A stretch of 6,462 bases of DNA from Clostridia bacterium. Its GTDB lineage: Bacteria > Bacillota_A > Clostridia > Oscillospirales > CAG-272. The notes beneath the pieces are model-generated. The model had not been told where the DNA came from, searched no databases, and was given only the letters and a program-made list of their open reading frames with translations. The stretch is taken from assembly GCA_017935805.1 (NCBI GenBank), contig JAGBGV010000323.1, positions 1 to 6,462 of the forward strand. The letters are read 5' to 3'. The translations under genes were made by a program, and so were the position numbers. Of this stretch, positions 983-3,703 are shown in pieces; position 1 is the stretch's first letter, and each line of letters starts with the position of its first letter.

Positions 983-1025
983 AAAAAGGAAAAACCGCAT
1001 CTGTCATTATGACTTTTGCGGTTTT
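983..1025 (-). terminator. Rho-independent terminator overlapping the 3' end of the GTPase-NYN gene
   Basis: On the minus strand AAAACCGCA (1025-1017) pairs perfectly with TGCGGTTTT (999-991) over 9 bp, followed by TCC and a run of five T. The 5' arm lies within the last codons of the GTPase-NYN gene, and its TAA stop (1009-1007) falls in the loop region. A short inner palindrome (GTCAT/ATGAC) could lengthen the stem. It isolates the gene from the catalase gene downstream. Confidence 0.82.
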
Positions 1026-3598
1026 CTTGTGTTTTTCTTCAGTTCCTTGAGTATTTCGTTGATCTCCTCATCAACTGAGGTGATCTCGCTCCAGAACTCT
1101 CTTGCGGACAGCCTGAGTACTCCCGAACGGAACGCTTGCAGCTGAATGAGTCCGTCGGATGTGACAACTCGCACGTTATAGTCGCGACCGATCTTGTCAA
1201 CGAATTTTTCAATGTAGGTGTCTCCAAGCTCGTCCTCTTTGGTGTAGACTACGTTTATGCCGTTGTAGTCGAACTTACGCTCAACCGAGCCTTTCACGTT
1301 GTATGCGTCAAAGACGACAACTATATCGCGCTTGGTAAATCCGTGGTAGTTTGCAAGAATGTCGCACAAGTCCCGCCGCGCCGTCTCAAGATCGTGCTCT
1401 GCAATAGCGGCAAGCTCATCGCAAGCAAAGATCACGTTATAGCCGTCGATGACATACAGTGATTTCTTGTATTTTTTAGTTTTGACATCGGGGAGATGAG
1501 CCTGTTCCTTCGGCTTTCCGTAAACGCGGCGCTTGATTGGTCCGAATTCGCGCTCCATTATGGCTTCAAGCTCTTTTTCGTCAATGTTTATATTCTGGTG
1601 TATTACTCGTGGGGTGGTGTCAATAAGTGACAAGTCTATTTCACCTTTGACCTCCGCCGCGCCGAGATGCATGTATTCAGTCACCTGCCACCAGGGAACA
1701 ACAAATCCGGCGCCGTGAGAGCAGAATACGGAGTCGGGAGTGTTGTCAAGATCCGCCTCAGGCTCGTAATTGAACTGGGCAATGACTTCTTCGCTGTTGT
1801 GGCAGGGGTAGTATCCGTCAACTCGACAGGAGAAACGTCCTTTTCCGTGTGTGTATGCCGCAACCTCCTTTGCGTAGTCCGCAAGAGTTGCAACGGGTGC
1901 GCGTCCTTTGAGTAGGGAAGTGCCTGGAGCGGACTCGTGCTCACTGAACGTTCCTTGGCGGGCAACAATGTCGGATATTGCTCGTCCGACACACTCTCCC
2001 GGAACTTCAAGTGTGAATGTGTAATAAGGTTCGAGTAATCGACATTTTCCGCGCTCGCGAAGCATCATGAGACCATGACGTACAGCGCGGTAAGTCGCTT
2101 CTCGGAAGTCGCCGCCGCTTGTGTGCTTTAGATGAGCTCTGCCGGAAACAAGGGTGATCTTTGCGTCTGTAAGCGGAGAGCCTGTCAGCACGCCGAGATG
2201 CTGTTTTGCCTCAAGGAAAAACATTACAAGTCTCTGCCAGTTGCGTTCAAAGTGGTTTTCGTCTGCTACTGTGTCAAATACCATGCCTGATCCTGCGGGT
2301 AACGGCTCTATAACCAGATGTACTTCAGAATAATGACGCAGAGGCTCGAAATGACCAACGCCCTCGCCGGATGCTGTGATCGTCTCTTTATACATGATCC
2401 GTCCATCGGCAAATGACACGTCGATACCGCAGCGCTCTTTGATGATACTAACGAGCACCTCACATTGAACTTGTCCCATAAGCTGTGCGTGTATCTCTCC
2501 GAAACGCTCATTCCAGACGATGTGCAGAAGTGGCTCTTCCTCCTCAAGCACCTTGAGCTTGGGCATCACCAATCGCGGGTCAGCCTCTTTTGGCAAAACT
2601 ATGCGATAATTCAGTACCGGCTCGAGATATGGAACGGACGATGCACTTTCACCACCGAGCCCCTGACCGATATATGTTCCCGAGAGCCCCATAACAGCGC
2701 ACACCTGACCTGCAGGACATGAGTCAAGAGGCTCGTATTTTGCGCCGGAGTAAGCTCTGATGCCTGTGATTTTTTCTTCAATTTGGTCGTCTTCTCCGAG
2801 GGGAGCGTATTTTAGCACCTGACGCTGCACCAGCTTCCCGCCTGTGATCTTCATATAGGTGATGCGTGCGCCGCCGACATCGTGTCCGATCTTGTAAACC
2901 CGAGCTGCGAACTCCTCGGGATATTTCTTCTCAACGGTGTATTTTTCAAGAGCTTCTACAAGCTTGTCTACACCTTCCATTTTCAAGCCGCTGCCGAAAA
3001 AGCAGGGGAACAGCTTACGTTCTGCTACGAGTCCGGAGATGTCGTTCTCTTTTACCTCTCCGCTTTCCATGAATCTGTCAAGCAGTTCTTCATCTGTCAT
3101 GGCAACCCGTTCTAAAAGATCTTCTTCGGTAGAAAAATCCACACAGGATGAGGAAAGATGAGCGGTGAGGTCGCGCATTATGAATTCTCTGTCGAATGAG
3201 GAGAGATCCATTTTGGTTACAAAAATAAAAGTAGGTACTGAATAACGCTCCAAGAGATGCCACAGGGTTTCTGTGTGAGCCTGAACACCCTCCGAACCGC
3301 TTATCACAAGGATCGCATAGTCGAGTACAGAGAGGGTGCGTTCTGCCTCTGCTGAAAAATCCACGTGACCGGGGGTGTCAAGCAGAGTGACCTTTATGTT
3401 CGGCGTTTCAAATATCGCCTGCTTGGAGAAAATTGTGATCCCGCGGTCTCTCTCAAGCTCATGTGTGTCAAGGTAAGTGTTGCGGTGATCTACACGACCA
3501 GCTTTTTTTATCTTACCTGTGGTGTAGAGCAAGGCTTCCGACAACGTCGTTTTACCTGCGTCAACATGAGCAAGGATCCCGATTACTTGATTCTTCAT
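1007..3598 (-). CDS. Tet(M)/EF-G-like translational GTPase fused to a C-terminal NYN (YacP/Rae1-like) ribonuclease domain
   Basis: An 863-residue cytosolic protein in two parts. Residues 1-610 follow the ribosomal-protection/EF-G plan: G1 AHVDAGKTT (10-18), switch I RGIT (52-55), G3 DTPGH with His78 (74-78), G4 TKMD (128-131, Thr in place of the usual Asn), G5 GSG (202-204), domain II from about 230, III from about 325, IV from about 405 and V from about 523. A connector (611-710) carries a CSHGAG...VVPW...YMHL motif (626-645), then a charged helix. Residues 711-840 match YacP/Rae1: IDGYN (D718), VVFDAYNVKG (D764), YTKEDELGDTYIEK (D793), VVTSD (D815), GVLRLSARE. Canonical Tet(M) ends near 639 residues, so the NYN part is an addition. 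The Tet(M) domain-IV loop (YSPVSTPADF as I recall it) reads AHLKHTSGGDF here, which argues against drug resistance. The start has AAAGGA five bases upstream; the gene has its own promoter and terminator. Inferred role: a GTP-dependent ribosome-binding factor that may cut mRNA in the A site. Confidence 0.9.
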   Translation of the reverse strand: MKNQVIGILAHVDAGKTTLSEALLYTTGKIKKAGRVDHRNTYLDTHELERDRGITIFSKQAIFETPNIKVTLLDTPGHVDFSAEAERTLSVLDYAILVISGSEGVQAHTETLWHLLERYSVPTFIFVTKMDLSSFDREFIMRDLTAHLSSSCVDFSTEEDLLERVAMTDEELLDRFMESGEVKENDISGLVAERKLFPCFFGSGLKMEGVDKLVEALEKYTVEKKYPEEFAARVYKIGHDVGGARITYMKITGGKLVQRQVLKYAPLGEDDQIEEKITGIRAYSGAKYEPLDSCPAGQVCAVMGLSGTYIGQGLGGESASSVPYLEPVLNYRIVLPKEADPRLVMPKLKVLEEEEPLLHIVWNERFGEIHAQLMGQVQCEVLVSIIKERCGIDVSFADGRIMYKETITASGEGVGHFEPLRHYSEVHLVIEPLPAGSGMVFDTVADENHFERNWQRLVMFFLEAKQHLGVLTGSPLTDAKITLVSGRAHLKHTSGGDFREATYRAVRHGLMMLRERGKCRLLEPYYTFTLEVPGECVGRAISDIVARQGTFSEHESAPGTSLLKGRAPVATLADYAKEVAAYTHGKGRFSCRVDGYYPCHNSEEVIAQFNYEPEADLDNTPDSVFCSHGAGFVVPWWQVTEYMHLGAAEVKGEIDLSLIDTTPRVIHQNINIDEKELEAIMEREFGPIKRRVYGKPKEQAHLPDVKTKKYKKSLYVIDGYNVIFACDELAAIAEHDLETARRDLCDILANYHGFTKRDIVVVFDAYNVKGSVERKFDYNGINVVYTKEDELGDTYIEKFVDKIGRDYNVRVVTSDGLIQLQAFRSGVLRLSAREFWSEITSVDEEINEILKELKKNTRKPQKS

Positions 3599-3631: not shown

Positions 3632-3660
3632 ATTATACCATAAAAAGCAATCAAAGTCTA
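3632..3660 (-). promoter_or_regulatory. Sigma-A-type promoter for the GTPase-NYN gene
   Basis: On the minus strand a -35 box TAGACT (3655-3660, 4 of 6 consensus) is followed by a 17-base spacer and a perfect -10 box TATAAT (3632-3637). The leader would be only about 25-30 bases, ending in AAAGGA (3604-3609). There is no room for the long attenuating leader with a leader peptide known upstream of tet(M). The promoter directly abuts the preceding terminator. Confidence 0.78.
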
Positions 3661-3703
3661 CAGCAAAACAAAAATCTCCCCGTTTTTAGCCGATTCGGGG
3701 AGA
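3661..3703 (-). terminator. Rho-independent terminator of the dnaX-ybaB-recR operon
   Basis: On the minus strand TCTCCCCG (3703-3696) pairs with CGGGGAGA (3682-3675), an 8-bp GC-rich stem with a 13-base loop. It is followed by TTTTTGTTTTG. It starts seven bases after the recR stop codon. Confidence 0.9.

Follow-up and report, generated by a model that had tools for sequence, protein, structure and literature searches.

The 6,462-nucleotide window from a Clostridia bacterium analysed here (contig JAGBGV010000323.1) encodes a translational GTPase fused to a nuclease domain of the NYN_YacP family, and the gene is probably its lineage's Rae1 (YacP), that is, a ribosome-dependent endoribonuclease tethered through a linker of ~70 residues to a GTPase of its own subfamily. 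Rae1 is an A-site endoribonuclease (PMC6613710, PMC8266666) and is non-essential (PMC8266666), as stated in the accessible text of these papers. Its targets include S1025/yrzI and bmrCD (PMC10632193). In many clostridia, Rae1 seems to have been replaced by this version tethered to an elongation factor G (EF-G)-like GTPase. We know of no account of how Rae1 is brought to particular ribosomes; a GTPase fusion that replaces Rae1 and lacks its C-terminal tail suggests that ribosome docking can come from a GTPase.

A Rae1-like nuclease domain on a translational GTPase

The fusion gene is a single uninterrupted ATG frame of 863 amino acids (aa) on the minus strand (1007-3598), and the plus-strand reading of this interval is full of stops. 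Pfam matches include GTP_EFTU (residues 5-221, 2.8e-50), EFG_IV (residues 399-510, 6e-14), EFG_C and NYN_YacP (residues 716-859, 1.1e-42, 146 bits versus a cut-off of 24.6), whereas EF-G_D2 (18.6 bits) and EFG_III (25 bits) remain below their cut-off of 27. A first-pass annotation of the window had described one 863-residue frame with an EF-G/Tet(M)-type body followed by a YacP/Rae1-like NYN domain with four aspartates. Pfam, the PDB match and the alignment described below agree with that description; among the Pfam domains it named, GTP_EFTU, EFG_IV, EFG_C and NYN_YacP were recovered, and EFG_III stayed under its cut-off. The gene and its parts are as follows.

1007..3598, minus strand: GTPase-NYN fusion gene, 863 aa (frame and Pfam)
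2936..3586, minus strand: G domain, residues 5-221, with P-loop AHVDAGKTT, switch RGITI, DTPGH and G4 motif TKMD
3206-3217, minus strand: G4 motif TKMD, residues 128-131
2675..2911, minus strand: EF-G domain II-like, residues 230-308 (under the Pfam cut-off)
2411..2623, minus strand: EF-G domain III-like, residues 326-396 (just under the Pfam cut-off)
2069..2404, minus strand: EF-G domain IV, residues 399-510; its tip loops EGVGHFEPLRHYSEVHL, HLGVLTGSP and GRAHLKHTSGGDFR are specific to the subfamily
1793..2041, minus strand: EF-G domain V/EFG_C, residues 520-602 (Pfam 8e-19)
1664..1804, minus strand: GTPase C-terminal extension, residues 599-645, PDSVFCSHGAGF...YMHL
1466..1663, minus strand: linker, residues 646-711, nearly constant in length and modelled with low confidence in places
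1544-1579, minus strand: conserved linker helix ELEAIMEREFG, residues 674-685 (without a Pfam match)
1022..1453, minus strand: NYN_YacP nuclease domain, residues 716-859, with D718, D764, D793 and D815

The C-terminal 304 residues are matched by 7972/7995 scored database candidates, and all 120 matches listed contain EFG_C, EFG_IV and NYN_YacP (a few without GTP_EFTU), so the GTPase-NYN fusion, judged from these sequences, is not an assembly chimera. An AlphaFold model of the fusion has a mean predicted local distance difference test (pLDDT) score of 82.8 and a predicted template modelling (pTM) score of 0.66, and the 50 rows of a Foldseek search with it include EF-G, EF-G-like and EF-2 chains (best E 6e-52, EF-G).

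YacP of Bacillus subtilis (5mq8/5mq9) is the only significant PDB sequence match of the NYN part (75 bits, 6e-20, 140 residues aligned), and D718 aligns with chain residue D7 of this structure. Conservation was assessed in the window protein and 47 proteins from 51 relative-encoding loci (L039, L040, L046 and L051 omitted as partial). D718, D764, D793 and D815 are present in 47/48 rows, the exception being a frame that stops before the domain (L038), and are invariant in a separate 44-row alignment; the catalytic aspartates are thus kept in homologues, as the first-pass annotation had proposed to check. These residues bear on an alternative in which the GTPase does the work, for example by clearing stalled ribosomes with an EF-G-like push, and the role of the NYN domain is limited to binding or shielding RNA. 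Unfused GTPases are found without any NYN_YacP in 5/196 genomes of the class, in favour of this alternative, but the four acidic residues are invariant in every fused row that reaches the domain, which binding alone would not demand, and we consider it very unlikely.

The fused and stand-alone nucleases exclude each other

Exclusion was judged in genomes other than the window's own. In 20/20 genomes reached via fused loci, the sole NYN_YacP is the fused copy, and the nearest relatives (L001 and L002, 86 and 84% identical) have the fusion only. Within a class sample of 196 genomes, requested at ≥90% completeness, NYN_YacP exceeds the cut-off in 133, with one match each and none with two. By frame length, 59 of these matches are ≤220 aa, 69 are ≥700 aa and 5 are intermediate, with the body on another contig (G192, G176), a broken frame on the same contig (G064, G210) or, in G205, a contig-cut fusion counted from a 451-aa frame alone. 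The class sample therefore totals 74 fused (5 with broken or cut frames), 59 stand-alone, 63 with neither and 0 with both (Fisher p 6e-16 over the 196 genomes, not corrected for kinship). Two genomes (G140 and G194) have an extra NYN_YacP match below the cut-off (21 bits, frames of ~165 aa), not counted as yacP. In a 299-genome phylum sample, 161 are above the NYN_YacP cut-off; among the matches listed, at least 18 have frames ≥700 aa, one genome (G414) has two stand-alone copies and none has both forms. The first-pass annotation had raised the question of whether fused genomes lack a stand-alone yacP, and no intact copy was found in 20/20 and 74/74 of them. The fusion apparently took over the job of the stand-alone enzyme.

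The two forms also differ in sequence. A single branch (96/97; 97% of bootstrap trees) divides the fused from the stand-alone NYN domains in a tree built from 25/55 fused proteins and every one of the 20 stand-alone proteins read from L052-L081. The fused NYN domain lacks the C-terminal LExxRR tail typical of stand-alone YacP/Rae1: the pattern LE(1-3)R[RK], sought in the last 16 residues of stand-alone and the last 40 of fused proteins, is present in 18/20 stand-alone YacP and 0/55 fused proteins, and the printed tails of the two misses (L054 and L056) read LDKIRK. By alignment with 5mq8, the last residue of the tail FEKWRR is chain residue 166 of the B. subtilis structure, with chain numbering taken as Rae1 numbering. 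Rae1 R166P is among the efp suppressors in which, on the authors' reading in the accessible text of PMC6613710, yacO or rae1 has lost its function, and R166P in the Rae1 tail looks like a loss of function. The absence of this tail is in keeping with a transfer of docking to the GTPase.

The tether itself is nearly constant. From H644, at the end of the GTPase extension, to D718, at the start of the NYN domain, there are 67-74 residues in 45/47 rows (outliers: L041 with 81 residues and L042 with 102). The linker helix pattern E[LM]xxIMxREFG occurs in 41/47 rows, and the helix ELEAIMEREFG is a candidate docking element by its conservation. Overall, the fusion and B. subtilis Rae1/YacP share the same domain over 140 residues with the same acidic residues, and the fusion takes the genomic place of Rae1; it differs in having a GTPase and a linker of ~70 residues, in lacking the LExxRR tail and in its locus.

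Traces of yacP between rlmB and sigma-factor genes

Stand-alone genes occur in the order rlmB-yacP-sigma. An upstream rlmB was recognized in 3/3 loci by profile and in 15/20 by eye from its C-terminal letters, some loci (for example, L061 and L064) have another gene upstream of yacP, and sigma regions 2 and 4 were found in 10/10 scanned genes downstream. The fusion gene of the window lies instead between recR and a manganese-catalase-like gene, not at the rlmB-sigma locus. We located rlmB in 50 fused genomes. In 19 of them, it is followed on the same strand by a sigma-factor gene (gap -24 to 589 nucleotides) with no intact yacP between the two; the sigma identity was confirmed by Pfam for four of these genomes. 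In 3/50, a sigma-like match lies elsewhere.

Fifteen of the 19 gaps between rlmB and a following sigma-factor gene were long enough to be searched, in the sense of rlmB and with X at stops, with a profile of the 20 stand-alone YacP. Controls were the antisense strand and 100 shuffles per gap, which moved two-base blocks and did not keep all dinucleotides. Seven of the 15 gaps beat all 100 of their own shuffles, six of them clearly (L114, 35.1 bits; L148, 17.1; L149, 15.5; L145, 10.3; L157, 9.0; L144, 8.7), and L113 is marginal (5.2 bits versus a shuffle maximum of 3.7); the best antisense score was 1.0 bits. The profile search was preferred to an earlier tblastn test, in which E shifted with target size (2e-9 for the gap alone, 0.001 versus 50 loci). 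The clearest relic, in G042 (L114, equivalent to L133 ~1730-2100), has stops in every frame, and the tail IFEKLDKIRKGK is still visible. On the evidence of the profile scores, the traces in these gaps are what is left of decayed yacP genes, in genomes that also encode the fusion.

This replacement bears on a second alternative, in which the fusion is an rRNA or tRNA maturation nuclease whose NYN domain is delivered to the ribosome by the GTPase for trimming. A role of NYN domains in rRNA and tRNA maturation has been proposed (Anantharaman and Aravind 2006, cited in the accessible text of PMC4342817), and stand-alone yacP adjoins rlmB. However, the closest characterized relative is Rae1, the non-essential A-site endoribonuclease of PMC6613710 and PMC8266666, and the stand-alone and fused forms replace each other, which suggests that they have the same substrate. 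Maturation as the function of the fusion is rather unlikely.

A GTPase subfamily distinct from Tet proteins

Nucleotide-binding motifs are intact in the GTPase body (P-loop AHVDAGKTT in 47/48 rows, DTPGH in 48/48 and RGIT in 47/48), and by these motifs and its EF-G domains it is a member of the EF-G superfamily. The G4 motif reads TKMD in 46/48 fused rows and NKTD or NKID in 8/9 unfused relatives, by the patterns tried. A profile of the fused bodies was searched over 50 of the 196 class genomes. Unfused members of the subfamily, with frames of 654-671 aa, scored 748-793 bits (G166: 549 bits for the larger piece, 729 aa), Tet-like proteins ~320-495 bits and EF-G-like proteins ~200-230 bits. The C-terminal extension (residues 599-645) is common to the unfused relatives, whose frames stop where the linker of the fused proteins begins. 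A zinc site in this extension (C599/H600/C626/H628) was considered and rejected, as C599, H600 and H628 vary between rows.

In a GTPase tree of 42 rows (20/48 fused, 8/9 unfused, 4 Tet-like and 10 EF-G-like; a quick method with no bootstrap), fused and unfused proteins group together, apart from Tet-like and EF-G-like rows (Shimodaira-Hasegawa-like approximate likelihood ratio test (SH-aLRT) 100), and form one clade each (SH-aLRT 99 for both). The Tet-like group is weak (76), with only four rows, of which L095 is a long branch. With L038 dropped, the domain-IV tip residues H416, E418, P419, L420, H422, Y423, E425 and H427, together with K491, H492, T493, G495, G496 and D497, are invariant in 47/47 fused and 9/9 unfused proteins; the commonest residue at these 14 positions differs at 13 in 16 EF-G-like rows and at 10 in 5 Tet-like rows. 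Tet(M/W)-type rows read YSPVS where all fused and unfused rows have KHT (491-493), and the YSPV loop, with its letters seen in L092, is what we take to be the Tet-type domain-IV tip. Tree and alignment together set the fused GTPase apart as a subfamily of its own, which has an invariant domain-IV tip and also occurs unfused. The 'Tet(M)-like' label of the first-pass annotation was loosely right for an EF-G-like body, less so for a GTPase that forms its own subfamily.

These comparisons also bear on the reading of the fusion as a tetracycline-resistance ribosomal protection protein to which the NYN domain adds RNase-based resistance. Tet(O)/Tet(M) are the solved structures nearest to the body of the fusion (244 bits), and resistance was suggested by Atkinson 2015 (PMC4342817), where, in the accessible text, NYN domains are reported on 'Tet proteins' of ten Clostridiales species and antibiotic resistance is offered as a guess. 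Public source names, available for 11 of the 120 matches listed, are of TetM/TetW/TetO/TetS family type in five, GTP-binding protein in three and NYN domain-containing in three. Against resistance, the window protein scores 395 bits with the NCBIfam model tet_protect (cut-off 775) and 268 bits with tet_protect_M_W (cut-off 1100), on which the Tet(M/W)-type relative L092 scores 1308; KHT stands in 47/47 fused rows in place of YSPVS; and the tree places the fusion apart from Tet-like rows. The fusion is also widespread in the class sample, usually with one copy per genome, and matches covering 80% or more of the C-terminal query were found in 2/72,556 plasmid records and 2/50,697 phage records, the latter from phage-labelled metagenome. 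We therefore regard a resistance function as quite unlikely. Fusion proteins with TetM/TetW/TetO/TetS family names are P0024, P0061, P0078, P0091, P0097 and the plasmid match H2.

Compared with Tet(M)/Tet(O), which have an EF-G-like body in common with the fusion and are its nearest solved sequences, the fusion has another domain-IV tip, a sub-cut-off score, a C-terminal extension and a nuclease. Compared with EF-G, it shares the overall fold and GTPase motifs at ~25% identity and differs by its domain-IV tip, C-terminal extension and nuclease. The architecture is the same as in the Tet proteins with a YacP-like NYN domain of Atkinson 2015 (PMC4342817); they are classed as Tet in the accessible text of that paper, whereas in our analysis the body groups outside the Tet-like rows and the fusion takes the place of stand-alone yacP. 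The first-pass annotation knew of no functional description, which was nearly right, the architecture having been reported in 2015 with a guess at its function. No later treatment of the fusion was found in the open-access literature by title or start of abstract, most subscription papers lying outside this search. New beyond Atkinson 2015 are the separate GTPase subfamily, the mutual exclusion with yacP, the putative decayed yacP genes, the single split between NYN domains, the absent tail and the constant tether. Some proteins named for tetracycline resistance (5/11 of those with source names among the 120 matches listed) probably act in mRNA decay, a point of importance for surveys of resistance genes.

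Proposed mechanism and points against it

We infer ribosome binding, A-site cutting and GTP control of the fusion from its parts: the body would bind ribosomes like EF-G and Tet(M), and the NYN domain would cut A-site mRNA as reported for Rae1. In the proposed scheme, the GTP-bound, EF-G-like body would enter the factor site of ribosomes whose A site is empty or stalled, and the invariant and unusual domain-IV tip would read the state of that A site. Because domain IV itself would occupy the A site, cutting would come after GTP hydrolysis or the departure of domain IV, either of which may give the tethered NYN domain access to the mRNA and allow it to cut in or at the A site. Cleavage would then start mRNA decay and ribosome recycling. 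Docking of Rae1 on the ribosome is reportedly the subject of work by Leroy in 2017. Taken as a whole, a GTP-timed surveillance nuclease, in which the GTPase tip recognizes a vacant A site and passes the mRNA on to a tethered Rae1, making free-standing Rae1 redundant across much of Clostridia, is a tentative proposal to which we give slightly less than an even chance.

Several observations weigh against the fusion being its lineage's Rae1 or against this mechanism. Since domain IV and Rae1 would be competitors for the A site, cleavage has to be sequential or occur elsewhere. The AlphaFold linker has low-confidence stretches and the pTM is only 0.66; the position of the NYN domain is therefore not fixed by the model. 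Unfused GTPases of the subfamily are present in 11/196 genomes, 6 with a stand-alone yacP and 5 without NYN_YacP, and the latter indicate that the GTPase has a role of its own; the 63/196 genomes without NYN_YacP likewise indicate that the activity is dispensable in the class. The single split between fused and stand-alone NYN domains could mean that the exclusion traces to few events. No sigma-factor gene was found near rlmB in 28/50 fused genomes, most with ~1.5 kilobases downstream, and the profile search found no trace of yacP in 8/15 testable rlmB-sigma gaps. Finally, the few plasmid and phage matches leave room for some mobility of the fusion.

As a separate observation, one genome (G126) has two unfused GTPase copies (L082 and G126:C1:577258-579195) beside a stand-alone yacP.

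Genomic surroundings

Neighbouring genes bear on a further alternative, a stress- or phage-triggered nuclease that shuts off translation. The architecture would be compatible with an mRNA-cutting shut-off factor, but no PADLOC family match was obtained and the surroundings are heterogeneous, with no recognized defence system among 10 scanned neighbours (a neighbour at L041 is a DNA methylase), and shut-off as the function is highly improbable. Ten neighbour genes in seven other fused loci are mutually unrelated except for YlmH-like genes in two, and ten neighbours of unfused genes are likewise heterogeneous. An operon with dnaX-ybaB-recR was rejected as a functional clue, as these neighbours are near the gene in only 2/51 loci (L001 and L002; tblastn, with many short flanks).

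Rfam has no match to an RNA leader in the window. Terminator scanning reported none, the hairpin read by eye after recR having a loop longer than the scan allows, and promoter-like matches number 2 in the region versus a shuffle mean of 0.7. In the window, the fusion gene is preceded by dnaX, ybaB and recR and followed by the manganese-catalase-like gene, all on the same strand. The promoter-like site and the hairpin after recR suggest that the fusion gene belongs to a separate transcription unit. The remaining features are as follows.

3676..3702, minus strand: hairpin CTCCCC...GGGGAG with a T-run after recR (read by eye)
3632..3660, minus strand: promoter-like site TAGACT-17-TATAAT with TG, upstream of the fusion gene (consensus match only)
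253-951: manganese-catalase-like protein, short at 232 aa (ManCatBAC 139 of 350 bits, under the cut-off)

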